From the IMG/VR virus record IMGVR_UViG_3300010883_008773, positions 1-20,312 of that record: a stretch of DNA of 20,312 bases; one strand, 5' to 3'. Of this stretch, positions 1,595-14,278 are shown piece after piece; positions within the stretch are counted from its first letter, which is position 1; the number at the start of each line of letters is the position of its first letter. Below the pieces are notes generated by a model. The model made no database searches, was not told the DNA's origin, and saw only the letters and a list, made by a program, of their open reading frames with translations. The position numbers and the translations under genes were made by a program. This stretch comes from a virus.

Positions 1595-4500
1595 TTATGT
1601 ATGAACATCTCTATCCTCCCATATACCAACACTATTCCTAGTGTACCAGTTTCCATTTATAAGCTCTTTTCTTGTATCACTCCCTCTGTAAAAATTTGTA
1701 AATCCCAGAAGTGAATAGTTTGCAGTCATATCCCCATCGTATGATTCTGCATCCTCAGGGGTAGATTTTTGTATATCCCAGACATTAGTTGTCCCACAAT
1801 CTATAGTGGTATTTTTCCAAGACAATCCAGACACATTTATCGTATTTATATTATTAGTGGTAGGCATTTCCCCCTCGGCTACAGCGTTAACTCCATTCAC
1901 CTTATACCTAAAACCTTCTGCATTATCACTGGGATAATAGACAGTGGGAGTGACAGAATAAGTGTTTGGATCAAGATCGGATATGGCTGTAGCATTACTA
2001 AAATAAAATGAATCACCTACTTGAACCTTGCTATCTAGCTTAATTTGTCGTATATTTGCTGCCTCTCCAACAGCATTATCATGCCTCAATGTTAATCTTT
2101 TAGAAGTTTTTAACTCCATATCAGAGTCCACACCAGCATAAATATATTCATCAGTCCCATCAGAATTCCATGATATCTTTTTTCCACTCGCGTGATATGT
2201 ATGAGTTGTGGGTGACAAGTTTATGCCTCCTGCCGATCCAAGGGCATATGAACTCTGACCTGTATTAGAAGTGCTGACTGTCATTATGCCCGCGTCTATA
2301 TCCACTTCAGAAGCAGTATGAGCATTACAATCAATATGCAATGCGCGACCTGCTGTATGGGCGGATACTAGTTTTATTTCACCATCTGCTGTTGTTGTTG
2401 TAAGGCTTATATCGTACTTGGCGCTAATACCGACATTGTCTTCTGAACCCATGTTTATGTCCCCAGTTCCAGACAGAATAGTAACAGAAGTCTCAGCTTC
2501 AGAATTTCCAATACCAACAGTAACTTCCTTGGCGCCATACCCCATATAAATAGCTCTTTCACCATCTGTCCCAATATTAATATCCTGGTCAATATCATCT
2601 ACACCTATTCCAATGGTTCCTGCTGATGAGTCTATAGTTATCGCTCCCACGGCATCTACATTGAATACAGTTCCAGCATATAGTGTCATACCACCCGATA
2701 TCGCTTCAAATTTCATAGCAAGATCAGAAGTACCACCAACATTACCGATATAAATTTTCTCCGTTGCAGCACTACCAGGAGTAAAGGCCATATACGTCGA
2801 ACTCGAATTACCAAGAGCCAATCTTCTCCCATCTATTAGCGATGGTGCAATCTTCATTGAACCAGCAGTTACATCTAGCTTCATTGCAGGAGAGCCATCT
2901 CCTTCTCCAGCAGAAACTATTCGCAGTTCTTGTGCGCCTCCTCCAGCAACCGCAATGTCTAAATCTTTTGCACTACCTGTTACTGTCAAGTTTGAATCAA
3001 GAGTGCCATCGATGGAAACGCTGGTCCCATCCATTGTTATTGATCCACCATCAAAATCGAGTGCCAAAGCATTAATATCAACCATTGTTGATGCAGCATT
3101 ACCAACTGTAATCGTCTTTGCTACAGCCTCAACACCAAGACTGATATTATCTGTCCCATCTGTATCAATTATTAAAACTCCCCCTGAATCAATGGTCATA
3201 GTACCAGCGGAAGTAACAGTCATTATATTACCAGCAAGAGCAGTTGTAGTATTATCAGCAGAACCTAATGTTAAATTACCAGTTCCATGCGGATCAATAC
3301 TAACATTACCATTAGTACCTGTGGTCATTGTAAGACCGCCTGAACCAGTAGTTACATTTACAGCTGTTGCCCCTTCGGCATTACCAATATTAATAGTGTC
3401 TGGAAATGCCCCTGTTCCTATAGATATAGTTCTTTCTCCTTGTGTACCTATATTAATTGCTTGGTCAACATCATCAATGCCTATCCCAATAGTTCCAGCA
3501 CTATCAATGGTTATCGACCCACTTGCATCTATATCCAATATACCTGCGTCTAGGTTCACTAGAGAACTAGCGTCAGCATTACAATCAATCCACAGTGCAG
3601 AACCTGCTGTTGTGTGGGCTGATTTTATCTTAATATCTCCATCTTCTCCTGATGTTTCCAGGTCTATACTACCAGTAGTGCTTGTAAAGATCATGTTGTC
3701 ACCAGCATCAATCGTGAGTCCCAAAGCGGCATCAATATTCATACCGCCAGCGCTAGCGTTAAACACCATCGCATTTACACTTGTACCCTGGGAAACGAAA
3801 TTCAGTGTCTGGTCCGCACCTCCTCCAAGAGCTTTAATTTGCAAATCTTGATCTTCGCCTGTGACTACAAATTTTGAAGTAAGAGTACCATTTATATCTA
3901 CTGTAGGGCCAGTTATATTTATAGTTCCATCAGAGTTTAAATCTAATGTGGTTGCCGTTCCAGATATTTTAGTATTATCATCTACCCAGGTAATGAGTTT
4001 ACCTGTAGCCATGTCAATATCGCCTGCGATATCTATATCACCAGATATCTGCAATTCAGGCGTAGTCATATCTACTATGGTTGAGGCAGTAATATTAGTA
4101 GTTGGATAAGTAATAGTCGCTGTAGTACCACTCATGGTTAGGGTTGTTGCATCTACATCAAAGGTAGCTGTAGTTAATTCCACCTCTGTACCAGCATTAA
4201 TGTCTAACAATGCTGTATTCATTTCAGTTTCTGTAGTAGAATCCAGAGTTAATTTGTCCGCATAATTAATGGTTCCAGTGGTTCCATGCATAGTCAGCGT
4301 GGTTGCATCTACATCAAATGTCGCTGTGGTTAGCTCTACCTCTGTACCAGCATTAATGTCTAGCAAGGCCGTGTTCATCTCTGTTTCTGTGGTAGAATCC
4401 AGAGTTAATTTGTCCGCATAATTAATAGTTCCAGTTGTACCATCCATAGTTAAGGTAGTGGCATTAACATCTAAAGTTGCTGCACCTGTAGTGGCTACAA

Positions 4501-5821
4501 TCTGTGTTGTGGGTGCTGTTAATATAGTTGAGGTTGCACTATTTATCGTGGCATCGGTGACATCTACATCTAATGTGGGCGTGCTTATTTCAACTTCTGT
4601 TACCGCATCTATATTTAATGTTCCACTATGGTCAATTTTATTAGTAGTTATAACAGTATTACCTACTGTAAAGTCAGTATCTGCATCGTAGGTCGTGGCG
4701 CTGTGTGCGCCTGTACAGTCTACATCTCCAGCTAATGACAATGTAGCATCTGTAATAACTCCGCTTGTTATAACTGTAGTGCCTACCGTAAAGTCTGTAG
4801 TAGCATCTATTGTTGTACCTTTAATAGTTGTGTGGCTTGAAAGTCCAATAGTAGTCCCATCAATAGCTCCTGCATTACAATCAACAGTTGCAATAGTAGT
4901 CGTTCCAGTAGCAAAATCTTGAGCTGAACTCCAAGTTAAACCACCTGATATAGTTGAAGCAGATATATCTCCACCATCAATGTTTACATTGGTAAGGGCT
5001 TGACTGTTCATATCTTGAGCTGAACTCCAGGTCAATCCTCCAGATATTGTGGCCGCACTTATATCACCAGAATCTATATTAACGTTTGTTAACGCTTGAC
5101 TATTCATATCTTGAGCTGAAGACCAAGTTAAGCCACCAGAAATTGTTGCAGCTGAAATATCACCAGAATCTATATCAACCTTAGTCATATTTTGGTCATT
5201 AAAATCAATGGCACCAGTAGCTTGAAATGCACCTATTTTGGTAGCCGTTAATGTCTGTCCACTAAATGTTAAATCAGCATCGTCAGCTAACAGTCCTGCT
5301 GTCCCTGCAAATGTAACTCGTCCTGAAGTTAAGTCAGAAGCTGTGAATGCTTTAGCAGTAAGTTTATAGTTTCCTATATCAACATGATCTGCTACAGTTA
5401 AACTTGTTATGCCATCAACTGTACCACCATCTATATCAGGGGTATTAAGGTCAGCAGTTGTTATTGTTGGAGAGGTATCCATAACTACCGTAGAGCCAGT
5501 ACCTGTAGTACCACTCACATCTGAAAGCTGGCTTAATATACTAATATGACCACCACTATCACCTGTCGCTCCACCACCATATCCTAGAACCATTACTCCT
5601 GAACTGGCGTTATCGCTAGAAACCTCACTGGTTTGTGCGGATATAGCATCTCCACCTACGCGAAACCAAGAACCAGCATCCTTAACATACATTGCAAGAC
5701 CGCCCTCAATTCTTGCCGCCCACATACTTCCATCTGAACCCTCATTATTACCTGGAGGTCCATTTGTAAATTGTAGTAATTTAGCATCCCTAAAGGCGTG
5801 TCTTCTGGTATCTTGTTTCAT
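1595..5821 (-). CDS. Large repetitive tail fibre / beta-structured structural protein (1408 aa)
   Basis: This is a very long Asp/Thr/Ser/Gly/Ile-rich protein of short strand-turn units (patterns such as LTMDGTTGTI and ITIDSAGTIGIG), typical of trimeric beta-helical phage fibres. The N-terminal ~60 residues, with aromatic WAAR and SWFRVGG patches, probably dock to the tail. Residues ~90-130 carry a GTTGTGSTVVMDTSPTITT segment common in phage fibres. Three 32-residue repeats lie at ~207-302, and 52-residue repeats lie at 457-560 with a partial third. Further similar blocks 292 residues apart fill the middle. The last ~150 residues are less repetitive and may hold a tip or trimerisation domain. 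The ATG at 5821 shares one base with the stop of the upstream gene (TAATG) and has no good SD, so translational coupling is likely. Host-receptor contact is inferred. Confidence 0.85.
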   Translation of the reverse strand: MKQDTRRHAFRDAKLLQFTNGPPGNNEGSDGSMWAARIEGGLAMYVKDAGSWFRVGGDAISAQTSEVSSDNASSGVMVLGYGGGATGDSGGHISILSQLSDVSGTTGTGSTVVMDTSPTITTADLNTPDIDGGTVDGITSLTVADHVDIGNYKLTAKAFTASDLTSGRVTFAGTAGLLADDADLTFSGQTLTATKIGAFQATGAIDFNDQNMTKVDIDSGDISAATISGGLTWSSAQDMNSQALTNVNIDSGDISAATISGGLTWSSAQDMNSQALTNVNIDGGDISASTISGGLTWSSAQDFATGTTTIATVDCNAGAIDGTTIGLSSHTTIKGTTIDATTDFTVGTTVITSGVITDATLSLAGDVDCTGAHSATTYDADTDFTVGNTVITTNKIDHSGTLNIDAVTEVEISTPTLDVDVTDATINSATSTILTAPTTQIVATTGAATLDVNATTLTMDGTTGTINYADKLTLDSTTETEMNTALLDINAGTEVELTTATFDVDATTLTMHGTTGTINYADKLTLDSTTETEMNTALLDINAGTEVELTTATFDVDATTLTMSGTTATITYPTTNITASTIVDMTTPELQISGDIDIAGDIDMATGKLITWVDDNTKISGTATTLDLNSDGTINITGPTVDINGTLTSKFVVTGEDQDLQIKALGGGADQTLNFVSQGTSVNAMVFNASAGGMNIDAALGLTIDAGDNMIFTSTTGSIDLETSGEDGDIKIKSAHTTAGSALWIDCNADASSLVNLDAGILDIDASGSITIDSAGTIGIGIDDVDQAINIGTQGERTISIGTGAFPDTINIGNAEGATAVNVTTGSGGLTMTTGTNGNVSIDPHGTGNLTLGSADNTTTALAGNIMTVTSAGTMTIDSGGVLIIDTDGTDNISLGVEAVAKTITVGNAASTMVDINALALDFDGGSITMDGTSVSIDGTLDSNLTVTGSAKDLDIAVAGGGAQELRIVSAGEGDGSPAMKLDVTAGSMKIAPSLIDGRRLALGNSSSTYMAFTPGSAATEKIYIGNVGGTSDLAMKFEAISGGMTLYAGTVFNVDAVGAITIDSSAGTIGIGVDDIDQDINIGTDGERAIYMGYGAKEVTVGIGNSEAETSVTILSGTGDINMGSEDNVGISAKYDISLTTTTADGEIKLVSAHTAGRALHIDCNAHTASEVDIDAGIMTVSTSNTGQSSYALGSAGGINLSPTTHTYHASGKKISWNSDGTDEYIYAGVDSDMELKTSKRLTLRHDNAVGEAANIRQIKLDSKVQVGDSFYFSNATAISDLDPNTYSVTPTVYYPSDNAEGFRYKVNGVNAVAEGEMPTTNNINTINVSGLSWKNTTIDCGTTNVWDIQKSTPEDAESYDGDMTANYSLLGFTNFYRGSDTRKELINGNWYTRNSVGIWEDRDVHT
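4142..4453 (-). repeat. Two tandem 156-bp (52-aa) repeats in the fibre gene
   Basis: Copies occupy 4453-4298 and 4297-4142 (residues 457-508 and 509-560). The two 52-residue units differ at one amino acid (LTMD versus LTMH), while roughly one base in ten differs, nearly always at synonymous sites. A partial third copy (LTMSGTTATI) begins at 4141 and soon diverges. The phase is exact at 156 bp. Confidence 0.95.
4916..5203 (-). repeat. Three tandem 96-bp (32-aa) repeats in the fibre gene
   Basis: The segment encoding SSAQDMNSQALT/NVNIDSGDISAATISGGLTW recurs with an exact 96-bp period; the shared plus-strand marker 'atcttgagctga' begins at 4916, 5012 and 5108. Protein copies are almost identical and the DNA differs mainly at silent positions. 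Each unit probably forms one layer of the fibre shaft. Confidence 0.93.
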
Positions 5822-7026
5822 TATGTATTCTTTAGATGTTTCATTCTATAAACAACATCAATTCCATAGATTTCAAGGCCAACCTGTGTAGCGCCTGTAG
5901 ACCTAAATATTAGCATACAGGTATATATATCTATCATCGGAAGGCTTGTTGTCAGGCTTACTGTTGTTCTTGAGGAGCTAGTTGTAAGCGCGCCTATTTC
6001 TGTTTTAGTATCTCCACCATCAGTAGATAGATAAACTGTAATATTTTCTCCTTTTTTAAAATCGACTCTAACCTCATATACTGTTGTTCTTCTAGCAGAA
6101 TCCCCAAAATCATAGTTCTTTGTAATAAGCTCAAAGTCACCTGTAGCGTATGTCACATCGGTCGCACTCCAGGTATATAAAAAGGCCGAGGATGTATCTA
6201 CCGTTGCTTGACTTAAATATGCCATTTTTTTATCTCCAGCAATGACTGCATTTGTTACCCTTCCAGGGACAACAAGAGAGTTATTATGATAGCTCCACGC
6301 CCCTGTTGCCAGATCACAAACAAACCCTGCCCCATTCCCAGAATCACCGTGCTTATCTACAACTACTAATTTTTTCACACCAGGAACATAATATAGTGCC
6401 ATATTACCTGAAATGCCAAGTTCTGATAGGGCGGAGGCCCAGGTTGGGACATTAACTTCCGCAGGGGTGCTTATATATGTGTCTATTCTTATCTTTCTGA
6501 AATTATCTTTCTCTGTTAATACTACTATTGAGTCCCCATTATATAAATAACAACCATGTGTATTGGCCCAGGCTATTCCATATTCAGTTTTCACAACTGC
6601 GCATGGATGGCCCACTCCCATGTTTGACCTGGTATCTTCTAAATACTCAGTACCCTGTGCCGTATTAATAATATATAGCGTGTTTGTTTTAAACTGTAAG
6701 ACTCTATCAGCATAAGATGCCAGGGCTATAATTTCTTCCCCATCATCCGTAGACACATCTATCAATCTATTTTCAGCAAATGTATCATAACTACCAACGA
6801 CAGACTTATACATTGTGTCTGGATATGTTACGGTGCTACCATCCTGTTTTACTGCAACCACATTACCTATATATGCAACCTTGTTTATAACTGTGGACGC
6901 TTTCCATCTAACCGCTTTAAGCGCTTGCCCGCTTGAAATAACCCTTCCATTTTGGTATGGAGGTTTTGAATATCCAAACTTTTTGCCCACTGGTGCGGGT
7001 GCTACATAGGCATAACTGGTAGCCAT
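5821..7026 (-). CDS. C-terminal half of nozzle / tail beta-propeller protein (401 aa)
   Basis: The sequence resembles the C-terminal half of phage nozzle (stabilising tail) proteins. Near residue 45 it has AVRWKAS...VAYIGNV, then TMYKSVVGSYDTF, LIDVSTDDGEEIIALASYADRVLQFK, LYIIN...EYLEDT and a GIAWANTHGCYLYNGD block. These are successive blade-like strands known from podovirus tail proteins. The C-terminal ~120 residues form a beta domain. In relatives as I recall them, these motifs sit inside one longer protein whose N-terminal half corresponds to the gene directly upstream (9671-7026). Here a separate ATG at 7026 shares one base with that gene's TAA, and the SD (AAGGAG) lies inside its last codons, so the halves are translated as a coupled pair. 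Location in the virion tail is inferred from family resemblance and order. Confidence 0.75.
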   Translation of the reverse strand: MATSYAYVAPAPVGKKFGYSKPPYQNGRVISSGQALKAVRWKASTVINKVAYIGNVVAVKQDGSTVTYPDTMYKSVVGSYDTFAENRLIDVSTDDGEEIIALASYADRVLQFKTNTLYIINTAQGTEYLEDTRSNMGVGHPCAVVKTEYGIAWANTHGCYLYNGDSIVVLTEKDNFRKIRIDTYISTPAEVNVPTWASALSELGISGNMALYYVPGVKKLVVVDKHGDSGNGAGFVCDLATGAWSYHNNSLVVPGRVTNAVIAGDKKMAYLSQATVDTSSAFLYTWSATDVTYATGDFELITKNYDFGDSARRTTVYEVRVDFKKGENITVYLSTDGGDTKTEIGALTTSSSRTTVSLTTSLPMIDIYTCMLIFRSTGATQVGLEIYGIDVVYRMKHLKNT

Positions 7027-7754
7027 TAATTAATCTCCTTGTAAAAGTACGGAAGTTTATCTAACCCTTTATATCTCCACTTTGCGCACATAAATTCCAT
7101 CTTGTTGCGCCATAGATCCCCATAAATATTAGTACATGATGGGTCGTTGTCAATTAAATTATCTATATCGTAATTTTTTGGATGGGATCTGTCGTAATAA
7201 AAATAGCAGTCAACCTTATCTTCACGATGGTCATATACCTCTTTGCCTGTATAATCCTTCATATAAAGAAATTGTGGACATATATGAGGGTTTACAAGCC
7301 TGCCATCCTTTTCTTGAACATAATACAGGGTTTTGAGTATATCTTCGTATATTTCTAAATCTATGTCTTCTTTTAGAGGAGTTATCTGTATATCATAATA
7401 ATGCGTTACTATTTCGTTCCTTGCGTTACTACCTATAAGGTAATAGTTAAACAATCCAGGGTATTTTATCTTCAGCTCTTTTACAACTTTAGTTGCCCTA
7501 ACATGTCCAGTAGCTTTATTATAATACTGTGATATTTCTTGTCTTGCCAAATAATCCCATATTGGCTTAATAAATGGCTTTATCCAGCCTGCCTTGCGAA
7601 CACGCTCCGCCCATTTTATGCCATATTTTTTATATACCCTTGTAAACAGGTTGTTTGTGTTCATAACATAATGTCTGGCCTTATATGTTTGTTTATTGGA
7701 TAATCCATAAAGCTCTATCGCCACAGGGCAACAGTTCCCACCTGGATTATTCCA
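7026..7754 (-). other. Accessory C-terminal module: CFI-box-like segment plus nucleotidyltransferase-like domain
   Basis: This region, residues ~640-881 of the 881-aa tail protein, sits at the junction between the two nozzle halves. Its first part (C647 C648 P V A I E L Y G, then R667 and LFTRVYKKYGIKWA) follows the spacing of the CFI box, C-x6-YG...R...F-x-x-x-Y-Y, with Pro in place of Phe. The second part fits hG[GS]-x(9-13)-Dh[DE]h of Pol-beta-type nucleotidyltransferases with 11 spacer residues, but the second carboxylate is Gln762. D821 in a hydrophobic strand would be the third metal ligand. Activity is uncertain because of the Gln. Confidence 0.5.
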
Positions 7755-9671
7755 ACCTTCAGGACCACCAGGCGGCTCCGTATAGTCTGAAGGTCCCACT
7801 GTATAATCCACCTTTGTAGATTCAGAAACCATTAAAAGACTCTCATCAAGAAGTTGCCAGTAAACCTGCGCAACGCCCTCTGATGTATTATATGCATCTA
7901 TTGAAACACCAACATAAGCAGGATAGGTGAGAGCCGTGTATTCTTTATAAACTGGGCCATTGTGTACTCCATATAATGCCGCGTAATAAACCCTTGCATC
8001 CCTGGCCTCTGTTGGATAATGATTGTCTATATGGGTTAAGGGGAATGTTGCTGTTTTATATGCCTCTGCCGCGGTTAATATGGGCAAAGTTCCCATTGAT
8101 ATGCTCCCTTTAAATATGCCTCTATGATCATCAGTAAATGTAACTAAAACATCACTGTTGGTGGCAGTAGCAATCTTATTCAAAGTCACAGTGTGGAGGG
8201 AAGTTCTGTCAATACTTACGATTCTTGTTGAACTTTGTAAACCAGTACCTGAAACATACATTCCAACCCTTAAATCGTCTGGAGGGGTAATGGCAGAACC
8301 ACCAGAACCATCTTGTATACCAAGTGCTGAAGAGGCAGCAATAGTGGTACAATAATATGTAAATTTATTCCTATATACCTCCCAATAATTCAATTTTGCT
8401 GTTGCTGCGTCTATTTCCTCTAAAATAAACCAGTCTGAATCAAATTGTTCTTGAAAATACAATACCAACCCCTCCACTCTATGATCACCAAAAAGCGAAT
8501 CGGCATTTGTCATATCTCCTAAGAGGTTAACGCTAACATCACCGCAAACAAATAACTGGAACGAAAGACTTCCCTTGGTTAGAGCAAGCCTAAATTGAGT
8601 AGCATTCGTATTGGTGACCTCTTTTATACTTCCAGTTCCTCCACCCTTATACCTTAATGCACAGCCAAACTTAAATGTACCACTCCAACCACCCATGGCG
8701 CTATCAGCAGAACCAGTTTTAGCTAAATATCCAAAAATAATAGTGTTATCTTTTAAAGAAGTACTTGTCTGGGGGTTAAGGCCGTCTAGATCGTGCGCCC
8801 ATACATTTAATGTGTCTATTGCGGATGTTGAGTCCTGGATTCCGCCAGCAAACTTACTAATTTCCATTGCACTGTGTTGGTCTACCTTCCCTGGTACTGG
8901 ATTAAATAAATCTTGTGCTATAAAGCCAAACCAATATGATTTATTATTAGTTTTAGAAAAGTCTATATCAGACACTCTTAATATTGACTCTGTATAATAG
9001 CTATCAAAACCCTTGCCTGTTGTGTCATTGGCAGCTAAATCAGCTTTAGGGACTCTAATCCATGTAGCCGCTGAATCTGGCTTTATCCATAGTGATTGCT
9101 GTTCAGATGGACAAATAGAATACCCCTCACCTCCACCAACTCCTTTAGGATAAGATATCTCTGTAATTGTTTTAAAAGTACTTGTGGCGCTGGTTTCCAT
9201 AAAACCAGACGCACCAGCGTAGTGGAGTTCAATATTAGCAGCTATTGCCCAGGACGTATCTGCAACTCTATAATTATATAAGATTACAGTAGTGCTGTCT
9301 GGAACCGACTGAACTTCTCCAACATTTGCAGTTGAGCCTAGAAAATTCGCTCTATCACCAACTATATTACCCACTGCAAGACCATGAGCGCCACTTGTTT
9401 TCAATTGTACTAAGTTCCACTTCCAATCACTTACAATATATTTAAGTCCGCCTTGTTTGGGAAGGTTTACACTCTCTAATCCATTAAATCCATCAAGCTC
9501 TGTGTCATTGTGTTTTATTGTGTCCCCATTACCCTCCTGAGAAATGGTACCAATACTTGAAAAACTACACCCAATTGCAGACGCGCATTCTTTTTCCTGT
9601 AGATTGTCAGCATTGCTTGCATTATTTAAACCTCCGTAGAATTCTGATATCTGTAGTGTTCTTTTGGCCAC
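7026..9671 (-). CDS. N-terminal half of nozzle / tail protein with extra CFI-box-like and nucleotidyltransferase-like C-terminus (881 aa)
   Basis: The start codon is GTG at 9671-9669. The N-terminus (FYGGLNNASNADNLQEKE..., residues 11-30) is the classic opening of podovirus nozzle/tail-tube proteins, and LRVSDIDF with YWFGFI (near 230-250) and DSDWFILEEIDA (~410) support this. Residues ~86-155 hold an AHGL-type domain. Residues ~440-512 hold a VGMYVSGTGL-type beta module frequent in phage tail proteins. From about residue 640 the protein changes character. A Pro/Gly linker leads to C648-x6-YG...LFTRVYKKYGIKWA, which resembles a CFI-box domain. Residues ~730-881, rich in Tyr/Lys/Asp, carry G747-S748-x-A-R-x-E, D760-I-Q-I and D821 in KVDCYFYY, the layout of a nucleotidyltransferase fold. 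The gene ends exactly where the second nozzle half starts. Confidence 0.75.
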   Translation of the reverse strand: MAKRTLQISEFYGGLNNASNADNLQEKECASAIGCSFSSIGTISQEGNGDTIKHNDTELDGFNGLESVNLPKQGGLKYIVSDWKWNLVQLKTSGAHGLAVGNIVGDRANFLGSTANVGEVQSVPDSTTVILYNYRVADTSWAIAANIELHYAGASGFMETSATSTFKTITEISYPKGVGGGEGYSICPSEQQSLWIKPDSAATWIRVPKADLAANDTTGKGFDSYYTESILRVSDIDFSKTNNKSYWFGFIAQDLFNPVPGKVDQHSAMEISKFAGGIQDSTSAIDTLNVWAHDLDGLNPQTSTSLKDNTIIFGYLAKTGSADSAMGGWSGTFKFGCALRYKGGGTGSIKEVTNTNATQFRLALTKGSLSFQLFVCGDVSVNLLGDMTNADSLFGDHRVEGLVLYFQEQFDSDWFILEEIDAATAKLNYWEVYRNKFTYYCTTIAASSALGIQDGSGGSAITPPDDLRVGMYVSGTGLQSSTRIVSIDRTSLHTVTLNKIATATNSDVLVTFTDDHRGIFKGSISMGTLPILTAAEAYKTATFPLTHIDNHYPTEARDARVYYAALYGVHNGPVYKEYTALTYPAYVGVSIDAYNTSEGVAQVYWQLLDESLLMVSESTKVDYTVGPSDYTEPPGGPEGWNNPGGNCCPVAIELYGLSNKQTYKARHYVMNTNNLFTRVYKKYGIKWAERVRKAGWIKPFIKPIWDYLARQEISQYYNKATGHVRATKVVKELKIKYPGLFNYYLIGSNARNEIVTHYYDIQITPLKEDIDLEIYEDILKTLYYVQEKDGRLVNPHICPQFLYMKDYTGKEVYDHREDKVDCYFYYDRSHPKNYDIDNLIDNDPSCTNIYGDLWRNKMEFMCAKWRYKGLDKLPYFYKEIN

Positions 9672-9673
9672 CC

Positions 9674-12600
9674 TTATGCTTCCCCGCCACCAACAGGGGT
9701 ATATTGCGACATAAAGGCTTTTAGCGCCTCATTGTACTGGGACTTTAGATCCTGCAAAGATTCAAGTTTAGACTTATGGTCCTGTAATACATTTTGGCTT
9801 TCCACCTGGTATGATGATATTTCACCTTGATATTTCTGCAATTTCATACTATCTTCTGACTGAATATTCTGTATATCTGCCTGGTATTTAACTATAAGCT
9901 CACCATTAAATTTTGTAGCCTCATCCAATTCGCTTGTATGTTTTTGAACCAGAATCTGATAGTCTTGAACAGCAATGCCAAGTTGAGCTTGAAAGGACTG
10001 TATGTCTGCCTGGTATTTACTAATTTTACCCTGGTATTCTGATACATCCTTATTAAAATCACTTACTTCATTTTGTATATCTTGAGCATATTGTTGTACT
10101 AATCTGTTTTCACTTGATTCCCATGTAGCTATTTCCTTTTGAAGTTCGTTAATTGTATACTCTTGAACCTCCAGAGCTATCCTGGCCTTATACCTCTCCA
10201 GGTCCCCAGTATACTTTGCAATCTTTGACTGGTACTCGGTCACATCTAAATTATATATATTTAATTCATTTTGTATATCAGAAGAATATACCTGGATCTT
10301 GGTAGTATTATATTGATTCCAGGCCGTAAGCTGTTTCTGTAACTCATTTATAGTATACTCTTGCACGGATGCGCCTATATCGGCTTGATATAGTGCCGTA
10401 TCGTTTGCAAATCTTTGAAGTGTCAGAGTATAGTCGGAAACACCTGCTTCCAGGGTTTTAGCCTCATTTTGGAGGCTTAATACTTGAGCTTGAGCTTTAT
10501 TTGACACATCCACATTGGTAGCCAGATCTGCCTCCTTTGTCAATCTTGCTATTTCAAGCTCCGCATCTTTTAATGATTTTTGCAATGCCGTCTGCATTTT
10601 TTGTATTTCCGCCTGCATTCCTGCCTGGAACACTCCATTACCCTTGTTGTATTCATTTAACTCGTTTTGAATATCCTGTCCATACTGTTGTATTTTTGAA
10701 GCGTTATAGTCACGCCACGCTGATAATTCTCTCGTTATTTCATTTATGGTATACTCTTGAACAGATGTAGCTATGTTCGCCTGGTAGGCCTGTACATCCT
10801 GTTGATATAATTGTATGTCGGCATTCCAGTCGGCCACTTGTGCCTCAAATATTTTAGCTTTGTTTTGAAGGTCTAATGCTTGATCCTGCGCCTTATTAGT
10901 AATGTCTACCTGTGTTCCTAGATCTCCATCTTTCATCTTCTCCTGCAATTCTACATCTGCCTGTTTCTGAGCCATCGATATATCTTTTTGCAGATTCGCC
11001 TGGCCAACAGTAATGGCTGACTTCATTTCCGCTAACTCTGCCTGAAAGTCCGTCTGATATATAGCGTTCTCTTTATTATATTTATTAAGCTCATTCTGAA
11101 TATCTTTTCCATAAGCATCTAATGAATCCAGGTTTCTTTTATTCCAAGCCATAAGCTGGTTGTCTATTTCATTTACCTTATACTCTTGAACGGCTGAATT
11201 TACCTGGTTATTATAACTTGCAATTTCAGCTTGATACCTCTGTATAGACGCTGAATATTCAGCCACATCCTGTTCAAAGTCTTTCACCGCGTTACCAATA
11301 GCAAGAGCCTGGTCCTGTTGCTTATTAAACATAGCCAGGGCCTGGTCTTGGGCCTTATTCCTTAAACTAACCTCTGTCACTGCTTTAGCATTCTGCATAG
11401 CAGTCTGTAGGTCTAAATCAGCCTGTTTAAGCATCTCACTTGAATCTATCTGCGCTTGGGTAATCATTTTTTTGGATTTAGCTTCAATGTCTGTTGACTG
11501 TGACTGCATTCCTGCCTTATAAACCGACAGGCTTTGATTAAAGATATTTAATTCATTCTGTATGTCTGCCTGGTATTCACCTAGAGATCCCTGGAACTGC
11601 TGTATTATAGACTGTGCAAGCTCAACATCCTCATCACCAATTGCCGTTGTTATAGTGCCTTGAACATCATTGTCTAATACTGGTGGAGTATAAGATGGTG
11701 CGCCTGGCAGACTGCCAAAGGTTGCATCACCTACGGTTGTGGCACTATTTACTGTAGGCGCTACCAGTTCCGTGGCCCCTGCGTCATTGTTTGTGGCATC
11801 AGAGTTTGATGCTGGCGTATATGTCAAGGCTGGGGCGGGAGGGGCGGTTGGTACTGTTATAGTAGATAAATCCAAATCATCAATATCTGGGACATTATTA
11901 AGCGTCAGTGCTGGCTGTGTATATGTTGGAGCGGTTACAAAGGCTATGTCTGTAGCAGACCCCATATCTGATACAGGCGGTATTGTTATAGTAGATATAT
12001 CATCTGCTGATGCATCTGAATTTGTTGCGACAGTATATGTTATAGTAGGTATACCAGGAGCCACAGGAGCGGTTATAGTAGACAGGTCTATATCATCAAT
12101 AACTGGTATAACATCAAGCATTAAAATAGGTTTTACATATAATGGGGACTCTGGTATCGTTATGTTGGCAATATCTGTAGTTGATGTCATGCCTATAGAT
12201 GATGCCGATCCATCCCCACCTGTTGCATCTTCATATGCTATGCTTGGGTCGGGTGGTGGTACTGGCGCGGATATTCCAGACAGGTCTAAATCATCAATAG
12301 ATGGGATAGAATCAATAGAAACAGACGGCTTTGTATATGTAAAAGCTGGAGCGGAAGGTTCTGCTGGCGGAGCTATTAAAGAGAGATCTAAATCTGATAT
12401 AGATGGAATACCTGAAAGCGATATGCCTGGCTTTGTATAGCTGAAACTTGGACCCGAAGGTGAAGAGGGGGCCGATGGTCCAGTGTAGGCAAAACTAGAC
12501 ACTGCGTTTGCCAAAGTCTGGTCTAGCGTTGGAGTTGCTGGGGCCGTTCCAAGCACTGGTGCTAACGGACTTGAAGGGATCCCTGTTATTGTTCCATGTA

Positions 12601-13369
12601 AAAAACTATATAGACATTTTATAGATGCGCCCAGAACAACTGTATGCGTCAGCTCTTCAGGAAACCCATTGGCTAGTTTTACAACAGTACCACCATCCAA
12701 GTCTTCTGATATGCTATTTGCTACTATTCCCTCTAAAGTAAATGTTGTAGAATTAGGGGTTGCCAATACCTGTGTGGTCATGCCGTTAATTAAATCATAT
12801 GGATCATCATCAGACACTTCAAGGAAACCAGATAGTTGTACAGTATCACCTACAGTTAACCCATGCGCCCCAGTGGTTGTAAACACCGCGTCATCTGCTT
12901 CACAGGTCACTGATGTAATTGTTGCGCCAGCAGATCTAATCAGACTATCGGTATACAGCACTACAGGGTATCCTACTTCTGTTACCTTAAATTCTCCTGT
13001 GGTTGCTACTGGCTCTGGATATACATATATTTTACCTGATTTTTTAAGGAAGACAGGGTTGTCTTCTGAAGCATAAAACATGCTATTTACATTGGAAAGA
13101 CCGCCCACATAAGCAGGACTAATCTCTTTACAATTAATATAGTATCCATCCACACCGCCCTCGCGCTGAACCTGAAGAACTTTACAGGTATTAGTTTGAG
13201 TATATCCATTTGCTGACTGCACTGCACTCTCCTGTGATACAAGCCATAGACACTCATAAGGTAAGATATTAATAACATCCTTGACCGCATCAGTCATTGA
13301 ATCGGTCATTAGCTGGGTATCACTTACACTACCGACCAGGTCTTCTATTCGCGCTTGAAAGGTTGCCAT
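9674..13369 (-). CDS. Adaptor-headed, Pro-rich, long coiled-coil tail protein (1231 aa)
   Basis: Residues 1-145 and ~233-260 look like a head-tail adaptor-type domain (MATFQARIEDLVG...AVKDVINILP; FPEELTHTVVLGASIKCL), interrupted at ~149-233 by an AHGL-type beta domain. Residues ~260-575 are Pro/Ala/Ser-rich, with four copies of an IPSIxDLDLS...AP motif. Residues ~575-1225 form a Gln/Ala/Glu/Tyr-rich coiled coil with five DIQNELN-type markers at 601, 755, 898, 1030 and 1096. No membrane segment or enzyme motif is seen. The stop lies two bases before the next gene's GTG, and the start follows TAGGAGAG, where the SD overlaps the upstream stop. The protein is likely a virion component anchored at the portal/adaptor ring, with the rod forming a fibre, needle or tail extension. 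The name rests on the N-terminus; the coil's function is unknown. Confidence 0.7.
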   Translation of the reverse strand: MATFQARIEDLVGSVSDTQLMTDSMTDAVKDVINILPYECLWLVSQESAVQSANGYTQTNTCKVLQVQREGGVDGYYINCKEISPAYVGGLSNVNSMFYASEDNPVFLKKSGKIYVYPEPVATTGEFKVTEVGYPVVLYTDSLIRSAGATITSVTCEADDAVFTTTGAHGLTVGDTVQLSGFLEVSDDDPYDLINGMTTQVLATPNSTTFTLEGIVANSISEDLDGGTVVKLANGFPEELTHTVVLGASIKCLYSFLHGTITGIPSSPLAPVLGTAPATPTLDQTLANAVSSFAYTGPSAPSSPSGPSFSYTKPGISLSGIPSISDLDLSLIAPPAEPSAPAFTYTKPSVSIDSIPSIDDLDLSGISAPVPPPDPSIAYEDATGGDGSASSIGMTSTTDIANITIPESPLYVKPILMLDVIPVIDDIDLSTITAPVAPGIPTITYTVATNSDASADDISTITIPPVSDMGSATDIAFVTAPTYTQPALTLNNVPDIDDLDLSTITVPTAPPAPALTYTPASNSDATNNDAGATELVAPTVNSATTVGDATFGSLPGAPSYTPPVLDNDVQGTITTAIGDEDVELAQSIIQQFQGSLGEYQADIQNELNIFNQSLSVYKAGMQSQSTDIEAKSKKMITQAQIDSSEMLKQADLDLQTAMQNAKAVTEVSLRNKAQDQALAMFNKQQDQALAIGNAVKDFEQDVAEYSASIQRYQAEIASYNNQVNSAVQEYKVNEIDNQLMAWNKRNLDSLDAYGKDIQNELNKYNKENAIYQTDFQAELAEMKSAITVGQANLQKDISMAQKQADVELQEKMKDGDLGTQVDITNKAQDQALDLQNKAKIFEAQVADWNADIQLYQQDVQAYQANIATSVQEYTINEITRELSAWRDYNASKIQQYGQDIQNELNEYNKGNGVFQAGMQAEIQKMQTALQKSLKDAELEIARLTKEADLATNVDVSNKAQAQVLSLQNEAKTLEAGVSDYTLTLQRFANDTALYQADIGASVQEYTINELQKQLTAWNQYNTTKIQVYSSDIQNELNIYNLDVTEYQSKIAKYTGDLERYKARIALEVQEYTINELQKEIATWESSENRLVQQYAQDIQNEVSDFNKDVSEYQGKISKYQADIQSFQAQLGIAVQDYQILVQKHTSELDEATKFNGELIVKYQADIQNIQSEDSMKLQKYQGEISSYQVESQNVLQDHKSKLESLQDLKSQYNEALKAFMSQYTPVGGGEA
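10085..11569 (-). repeat. Four coiled-coil repeat units of 154, 143, 132 and 66 residues (all multiples of 11)
   Basis: The marker DIQNELN, with its preceding residue, has first-codon positions 11569, 11107, 10678, 10282 and 10084 (last copy DIQNEVS). The spacings are 462, 429, 396 and 198 bp. Each unit also carries VQEY(T/K) exactly 28 residues before the next marker. Length differences all fall between the marker and VQEY and are 11, 11 and 66 residues. This preserves an 11-residue (hendecad) phase, as expected for a right-handed or weakly twisted coiled coil. Confidence 0.9.
11647..12592 (-). repeat. Pro-rich linker with repeated YTKP / IPSIxDLDLS motif
   Basis: Within the 1231-aa gene, residues ~260-575 hold four diverged copies of a block such as IPSIDDLDLSGISAP. 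The DLDLS/DIDLS segments repeat at intervals of 34, 66 and 72 residues; the first two copies are also matched by YTKP with Y codons at 12439 and 12337, exactly 102 bp apart. Between blocks are Asp/Ser/Ala-rich spacers. The region is probably an extended flexible stalk. Confidence 0.8.
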
Positions 13370-13378
13370 ATTACTCTC

Positions 13379-14278
13379 CTATTGATGATTGATCCAGTCA
13401 GCCATTGGGGGAGGTATAATGTCTGGCATTATCTCCCTGGCTGTATGGGATCTCTTATATTCTTCTTCATGTTGCCTACCAAGGCCACGATGACCAGAAC
13501 CGTTCTGTAATTGACCATCTAGGTCTAATAGCTTGGAAATAACATAATGTATCGCAGATGTTACTAATATATCATGCAGATCTATTTCACTTCTATTTGA
13601 ATTTCTTGGTCTTGGTTTTGCATAATAATAGACTGTTACTGTATCGCCAGAGTCTGGGGCCTTCGTAAAATGTAATTTATATGTTTCCTGGGTCCACGCT
13701 CCACCCGATGTATAGGCAACAGCATATGAATCAGCAACTACTGGTATGGAAAAGCTGTCAGCATCTATTTTAGTAATGGTATTCGTTAGACCATTAACTT
13801 CTGATAATGTATTATATTCATTATTGCCAGCGGTTAGGAAAAACCCAGCAACTTCTGATATTTTCACCGTATTGTCAGTGACAAGGCCGTGTGCCGTTGA
13901 TGTGACAACAGCGGGATCTGCTGCGGTTATTGCTGTAATTACACCATTTGTATTATGGGTCTTTACATAAAAGCCAATATTTGAAACATCAGAATCACTT
14001 ACATTAGAATTAATCGTTGCCTCTGGTACGAATGGTACCAGTTTCTCCCCAAGTTCCACTTTATAGATAGCTGGAGTGATATCATCGGGTGTAAGGATAT
14101 GCTCCCTGGTCCCCGATGATGTCAACACAACGCTTGCCTTTTTTCTTACACAAGTCCTTCCAAGTTTATCAACTTCTGTATCAAAGAAATTGGCTATAAG
14201 GCTATCTGTTACAGGGAAACCGAGGCTTGCTTTATTTAAAGCTGATGTTACAAGCTCATACGCCTCTCGATATCTCAT
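13379..14278 (-). CDS. Head-tail adaptor-like protein with AHGL-type domain insertion (299 aa)
   Basis: The N-terminal helix (MRYREAYELVTSALNKASLG) leads into a beta-rich section, and after residue ~198 comes YKLHFTKAPDSGDTVTVYYYAKP. This is followed by a helical segment (IDLHDILVTSAIHYVISKLLDLDG) and a basic tail (GRQHEEEYKRS). That order matches adaptor/connector proteins of podoviruses and SU10-like phages, which form the ring below the portal. Residues ~112-195 are an inserted domain with TSTAHGL, VKISEVAG, NTLSEVNG and AYTSGGAW, the pattern often matched to FCCH-like domains in phage tail proteins. The ATG at 14278 overlaps the stop of the 57-aa gene as ATGA, so coupling is expected. The stop TAG forms part of the SD of the following gene. 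The adaptor role is inferred from architecture and gene order. Confidence 0.65.
   Translation of the reverse strand: MRYREAYELVTSALNKASLGFPVTDSLIANFFDTEVDKLGRTCVRKKASVVLTSSGTREHILTPDDITPAIYKVELGEKLVPFVPEATINSNVSDSDVSNIGFYVKTHNTNGVITAITAADPAVVTSTAHGLVTDNTVKISEVAGFFLTAGNNEYNTLSEVNGLTNTITKIDADSFSIPVVADSYAVAYTSGGAWTQETYKLHFTKAPDSGDTVTVYYYAKPRPRNSNRSEIDLHDILVTSAIHYVISKLLDLDGQLQNGSGHRGLGRQHEEEYKRSHTAREIMPDIIPPPMADWINHQ

Follow-up and report, generated by a model that had tools for sequence, protein, structure and literature searches.

The question raised by this locus is what kind of phage protein carries a long helical rod whose repeat units appear to shrink by exact multiples of 11 residues, and which rule governs the lengths that such a rod may take. 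The stretch of DNA that we analysed, hereafter the window, is the 20.3-kb virus contig held as IMG/VR record IMGVR_UViG_3300010883_008773 (20,312 nt). The rod gene lies on its minus strand and has the following parts:

9674-13369, minus strand: rod gene, a single ORF with relatives in IMG/VR, for an adaptor-like protein of 1231 aa
12584-13369, minus strand: N-terminal tail-adaptor-like domain (aa 1-262, including an inserted beta domain), by likeness to the relatives L002, L072 and L044
12674-12934, minus strand: small beta-domain insert (about aa 146-232) that resembles the FCCH-like insert of the neighbouring protein (BLASTP)
11675-12583, minus strand: Pro/Ser/Thr-rich beta-like repeats (about aa 263-565), read from the sequence
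9725-11632, minus strand: helical rod (aa 580-1215), with a hydrophobic period of 3.665 and an all-helical model of low confidence
11108-11569, minus strand: unit 1, 154 aa, arms of 66+60
10679-11107, minus strand: unit 2, 143 aa, arms of 66+49
10283-10678, minus strand: unit 3, 132 aa, arms of 55+49
10085-10282, minus strand: unit 4, 66 aa, without tip motif
9881-10084, minus strand: unit 5, 68 aa up to a degenerate marker, which violates an exact rule of 11
11354-11380, minus strand: tip motif TEVSLRNKA of unit 1, a helix break in the low-confidence model
10892-10918, minus strand: tip motif TQVDITNKA of unit 2, likewise a helix break in that model
10496-10522, minus strand: tip motif TNVDVSNKA of unit 3, likewise a helix break in that model
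11291-11356, minus strand: tandem 11-residue (33-bp) duplication KAQDQALAMFN/KQQDQALAIGN, aa 672-693, 23/33 bases identical
11180-11191, minus strand: VQEY element of unit 1, aa 727
10751-10762, minus strand: VQEY element of unit 2, aa 870
10355-10366, minus strand: VQEY element of unit 3, aa 1002
10157-10168, minus strand: VQEY element of unit 4, aa 1068
9959-9970, minus strand: VQDY element of unit 5
9704-9766, minus strand: C-terminal helix LESLQDLKSQYNEALKAFMSQ, aligned to the C-terminal motif of relatives

Using the residue that precedes DIQNE[LV] as the marker, we found that the marker codons at 11569, 11107, 10678, 10282 and 10084 share one minus-strand frame and correspond to aa 601, 755, 898, 1030 and 1096, so that the spacings of 154, 143, 132 and 66 residues given in a preliminary description of this DNA hold in the 1231-aa protein. 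A sixth, degenerate marker (YQADIQN, aa 1164), outside that earlier count, closes a fifth interval of 68 aa. The VQEY element, stated to lie 28 aa before the next marker, does so in the four units counted, but in the fifth interval VQDY stands 30 aa before the marker. The further proposal that every length change falls in one segment does not hold, as the changes are found at two sites, on either side of a mid-unit motif (T.V[DS]..NKA) that splits the longer units into two arms: the step from 154 to 143 alters the second arm and the step from 143 to 132 the first. The second-arm change between the units of 154 and 143 is still visible as the tandem 11-aa duplication at aa 672-693, which sits at the end of the tip motif.

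The hydrophobic period of the window rod gives a single clear peak at 3.665, that is 11/3, where the power is 23.1 (95% limit from shuffles, 7.9), compared with 2.0 at 3.5; the dominant period is 11/3 and not 7/2. Relatives with at least three units have overall periods mostly between 3.60 and 3.65, mixed but not heptad, and per-unit Fourier peaks in short segments are too broad to tell 3.5 from 3.67. The family so mixes hendecads and heptads and stays near the undistorted helix (3.63; PMC4786415). Inside long units, self-identity is highest at a lag of 11 (0.173, vs a background of 0.098), followed by lags of 18 and 7.

From five IMG/VR scans we collected a large set of relatives, about 80 uncultivated viral ones after removal of redundancy, with family proteins of 349 to about 1640 aa. 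A protein-level search with three family members as queries recovered no relatives in 50,697 named phage records, none were found in the bacterial and archaeal genome contigs searched, and a search of PDB sequences gave only weak matches of a coiled-coil kind. In these proteins the marker (M) and the VQEY element (V) were scored by position-specific matrices that are blind to distance, and the M-to-V length was measured to the last V preceding the next M.

In the relatives and the window together, only twelve M-to-V lengths occur (38, 45, 49, 56, 60, 64, 71, 82, 93, 104, 115 and 126), nine of which climb from 38 to 126 as a ladder of 11 with no rung missing; the remaining three (45, 56 and 64) sit off that ladder by 4 or 7, about one or two helical turns and not a single residue. 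The window contributes 126, 115, 104, 38 and 38. Among the 83 internal units of relatives the most frequent lengths are 56 (22 units), 104 (16), 64 (14) and 93 (10), followed by 82 and 71 (7 each), 60 (5), and 49 and 45 (1 each), and taken modulo 11 these 83 units fill only three of the eleven classes: 5 (46), 1 (23) and 9 (14). Since related units inherit their lengths, the phase test was made on the distinct lengths and not on the counts, and for these twelve, which are still not fully independent, vector strength is 0.963 at a period of 3.67, compared with 0.26 at 3.5, 0.59 at 3.6 and 0.59 at 11. None of 20,000 random length sets reached the observed phase locking. As controls, the spacings of the proline-motif repeats in the beta region of these proteins gave vector strengths of at most 0.31 and the motif-to-marker distances of at most 0.21; the N-terminal domain yielded no single-gap pairs and so was unusable as a gap-length control. 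Judged on relatives that had no part in the formation of the claim, the length pattern goes beyond chance.

The same rule is seen when units are compared directly. In 33 independent single-gap unit pairs, with each unit used once, the gaps were 4, 7, 8, 10, 11, 15, 21, 22, 26, 33, 37, 47, 48 and 66, of which 10 and 21, each seen in one pair, are the only ones clearly off whole turns. Between V and the following M, the linkers measure 27, 34 or 41 in most relatives, thus differing by steps of 7, and a linker of 28 is found in the window and in at least single linkers of L190, L222, L244 and L262. Where a linker of 28 follows a class-5 segment, the sum (5+28 = 33) makes the whole unit a multiple of 11, which is why the spacing looks exact in the window. 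A strict modulo-11 rule for whole-unit spacing, which we considered and rejected, is true of the window and of some spacings of L190, L244 and L257 but fails in most relatives, where whole units of 83, 87, 90, 98, 120, 127, 131 and 138 aa occur. The claim that the rod accepts indels only in whole 11-residue steps consequently survives as to the dominance of such steps, but relatives also step by 4 and 7, and their lengths of 45, 56 and 64 and linkers of 27, 34 and 41 are indels not divisible by 11, which the preliminary description had itself named as refuting its idea, so that its rule fails if taken strictly. What remains is a rule of whole turns of a 3.67-residue helix, usually three, and not strictly of 11.

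This rule applies to each arm separately. Besides 66+60 and 66+49 in units 1 and 2 of the window, we found splits of 55+49 in 52 units (unit 3 of the window included), of 44+49 and of 44+38, from which it follows that each arm steps by 11 independently; this holds for units with a scorable motif, as many units, including all the shorter ones, lack it. Nearly all variation in M-to-V length is therefore by whole turns of the 11/3 helix, mostly three per step, arm by arm.

Such lengths could also reflect the way in which mutations arise, if 33-bp tandem duplications and deletions were produced by slippage or recombination with little structural selection. The one visible 33-bp duplication in the window, and the slightly higher lag-11 identity at third codon positions (0.339 vs 0.278), would fit this explanation; we nevertheless consider it unlikely, because steps of 4 and 7 are found as well, all in the same 3.67 phase, large single gaps of 22, 26, 33, 37 and 48 also fit whole turns, and steps of 4, 7, 26, 37 and 48 are not derivable from a 33-bp repeat. 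Slippage by 33 bp likely contributes, but alone it cannot make the steps of 4 and 7. An added whole number of turns would keep the hydrophobic stripe turned towards its partner, which suggests that packing of the core between the arms is under selection; insertions that keep phase would then survive and others would be lost. Coiled-coil theory holds additions of the 4 and 11 type (4-residue stutters and hendecads) to be tolerated (PMC4786415).

What the rod is attached to was approached through profiles and models. Residues 7-160 of L072 pass the Pfam SU10_adaptor profile (PF24175; 32 bits, cut-off 27), this being the only relative to do so among the scores seen; the window protein has no Pfam or PHROG match to an adaptor and most relatives are likewise without a SU10_adaptor match. 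The N-terminus of the window protein is 39% identical to that of L002 across 152 aa. An AlphaFold2 model of L044 (415 aa, 23 sequences, pLDDT 78, pTM 0.55) has an N-terminal mixed domain, a proline-rich stretch of low confidence equivalent to the Pro/Ser/Thr-rich repeats of the window, and two helices (253-323 and 327-411), the break between which, at 324-326, coincides with the tip motif. Foldseek places this model with podovirus tail chains (cyanophage A4, E 1e-5; GP4, 9e-5; also Pa223), and VIA-align gives Z scores of about 9-10, modest for helical models, to A4, GP4, KHP30, Pa223 and T7 gp11. The adaptor fold, a helix bundle with a beta dock domain, is thus found in the model of the relative L044; the model of the window's own rod (pLDDT 53, with breaks in units 1-3 at the tip motifs) is too low in confidence for fold searches. 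In VIA-align the aligned range of L044 runs from residue 1-4 through 414-415, an extent by which the C-terminus would sit at the adaptor domain and the arm would go out and back. The final helix of L044 seems in the model to lie against the adaptor domain, and the helical rod was probably inserted ahead of the helix that ends the adaptor fold. By the same matches, which reach the last model residue, the C-terminal helix of the window protein would return to its adaptor domain. C-termini in the family, those of L269, L235 and L185 among them, are of two kinds, a common one with QY..L...Y and a rarer one, for example YIQNNSKMI..TIAAQ.

The gene neighbourhood agrees with an adaptor. Gene order is portal, putative scaffold, SU10-type capsid protein, small gene or genes, and rod gene; the neighbours in the window comprise a portal (phrog_156), a SU10-type capsid protein (PF17236) and a protein near the SU10_adaptor cut-off, and in relatives the capsid gene comes immediately before the rod gene or is separated from it by one or two small genes. 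The rod gene accordingly lies in the cluster that adjoins the portal and capsid genes, where an adaptor gene is looked for. The protein near the cut-off is a second adaptor-like gene product:

13379-14278, minus strand: adaptor-like gene of 299 aa, neighbour of the rod gene (PF24175 25.9 bits, cut-off 27)

The 299-aa protein, which also scores just below the cut-off of PF16190, is homologous to a gene of 154-157 aa downstream of the rod gene in relatives. No similarity was found between the family profile and this protein, though both relate to SU10_adaptor. Because this second adaptor-like gene adjoins the rod gene, the rod protein may not be the adaptor that contacts the portal. Between one and three dodecameric adaptors are present in known podovirus tails (PMC11784390), and in SU10 the long tail fibres dock on the adaptor (PMC9509320), so that by analogy a second, arm-bearing adaptor is plausible in these phages.

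Other features of the surroundings were also recorded. A small beta domain of FCCH-like type occurs in both adaptor-like proteins (12674-12934 and 13682-13960; 29% identity, E 2e-4 in a BLASTP pair). The closest homologue of the 299-aa protein (217 aa, in L019) is without this stretch, and the domain may have passed from one of these genes to the other. A 1408-aa ORF with tandem repeats of 156 bp (52 aa) at 4106-4482 and of 96 bp (32 aa) at 4916-5179 has no family match and is probably a fibre-like protein. A 968-aa gene of L019 matches with its start the 881-aa gene and with its end the 401-aa gene of the window (5824-9671), which may be a split or fused pair.

Taking this together, we lean, on slightly better than even terms, to the reading that the rod gene encodes a tail-adaptor-like protein of a SU10-related short-tailed phage, with a helical arm of hairpin-like units and phase-keeping lengths inserted before the last adaptor helix. 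The protein would have the T7 gp11/SU10 adaptor fold, with the arm placed after the proline-rich beta-like repeats, and each hairpin-like unit would consist of a marker helix going out, the tip motif, a VQEY helix coming back and a linker to the next unit. It is like the T7 gp11/SU10 adaptor (PF24175) in the fold of its N-terminus, as judged from the compared model of a relative, in the one relative above the Pfam cut-off and in its gene position after the capsid gene. By contrast, the matched adaptors have about 180-240 aa and the family 349 to about 1640 aa, and the beta-like repeats, the helical arm before the last helix and the second small adaptor-like gene set the family apart.

The arms need not be hairpins if the rod is a continuous coiled coil in a parallel oligomeric tail fibre, with kinks and not turns at the tip motifs. 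In the low-confidence model of the window rod, long helices continue across the linker between VQEY and marker, and the long tail fibres of SU10 dock on its adaptor (PMC9509320), but the adaptor matches of L044 span the C-terminus and the length changes lie on both sides of the central motif; we regard such a fibre as rather improbable, though less so than the purely mutational explanation. We see still less of a case for a conduit, in which Gln/Asn-rich helices of many subunits would form an alpha-helical barrel, for nucleic acid or in the periplasm, as in the DNA-piloting tube of phiX174 H. The H protein has Gln-rich helices with hendecads and then heptads, a similar mix by the table in PMC7354561, and an adaptor is expected to have ring symmetry; against this, no sequence relation to H was seen and its gene place and domain context differ, the C-terminus is back on the adaptor domain in the L044 model, and length varies several-fold between relatives, so that a conduit is very unlikely.

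The preliminary description had also suggested a molecular ruler, in which the rod would measure virion length as tape-measure proteins do, with 11-residue steps as ticks. In favour of this are the exact 11-steps in the window, the 11-aa units and evolution of length by 11-residue steps of some tape-measure proteins, themselves helical phage proteins (PMC3271669), and weak matches of 9/23 relatives to tape-measure PHROG 1535 (best E 1.8e-5), which are consistent with shared coiled-coil composition. Those proteins, however, come from long-tailed phages and their 11-mers are marked by W/F, whereas the rod family is adaptor-like, steps by 4, 7 and 11, has hairpin-like units and lies in the gene cluster of a short-tailed phage, as the SU10-type capsid gene and the gp11-type fold indicate. 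Moreover, L021 and L012, with a 99% identical capsid protein and three small neighbours that are 98-100% identical, have rods of one vs two units: their rod proteins of 412 and 608 aa differ by a 131-aa unit plus a 65-aa beta-like repeat, and the larger neighbour is constant in length (707/709 aa). The ruler is thus unsupported and is, to us, the least probable of the explanations considered. The 707/709-aa genes, which lie downstream, are only 47% identical.

Helical repeats of 11 or 22 residues are also known from apolipoproteins of the A1/A4/E type, and the corresponding profile (PF01442) matches 10/23 relatives (best E 3e-7); the scores seen (19.8 and 30.8 bits) are far under its curated cut-off of 90, a resemblance of composition and period and not membership. 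Membership of the apolipoprotein, TPR/MLP or tape-measure families was rejected, the matches being only weak ones typical of coiled coils. What sets the rod family apart from the known 11-step and hendecad-heptad cases is the domain context, together with two arms that are scored separately.

Established theory has coiled coils prefer insertions of 3-4, 7 or 11 residues, and engineered insertions have often been used to test this. Here natural homologues occupy nine successive rungs of 11 together with single- and double-turn offsets, and each arm is scored on its own; the rule can thus be measured in evolution, and the rod is a clean natural record of the insertions that a coiled coil accepts. 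The family suggests a type of tail adaptor that bears helical arms, and the named phage records searched contained no relative of it. About a dozen arms would then project from the adaptor ring in the manner of whiskers or fibres, for fibre docking or host contact, with the number of units setting arm size unmatched to another part; whether as fibre dock, host contact or spacer, the function of the arm is a guess from position. It is possible, at clearly less than an even chance, that the tail adaptor bears a dozen helical arms which evolve fast and may take the place of the long fibres or dock them, an architecture not found in solved podoviruses, and that unit gain and loss tunes their reach. 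If the protein is such an armed adaptor, gain and loss of units would adjust the reach of the arms between near-identical phages.
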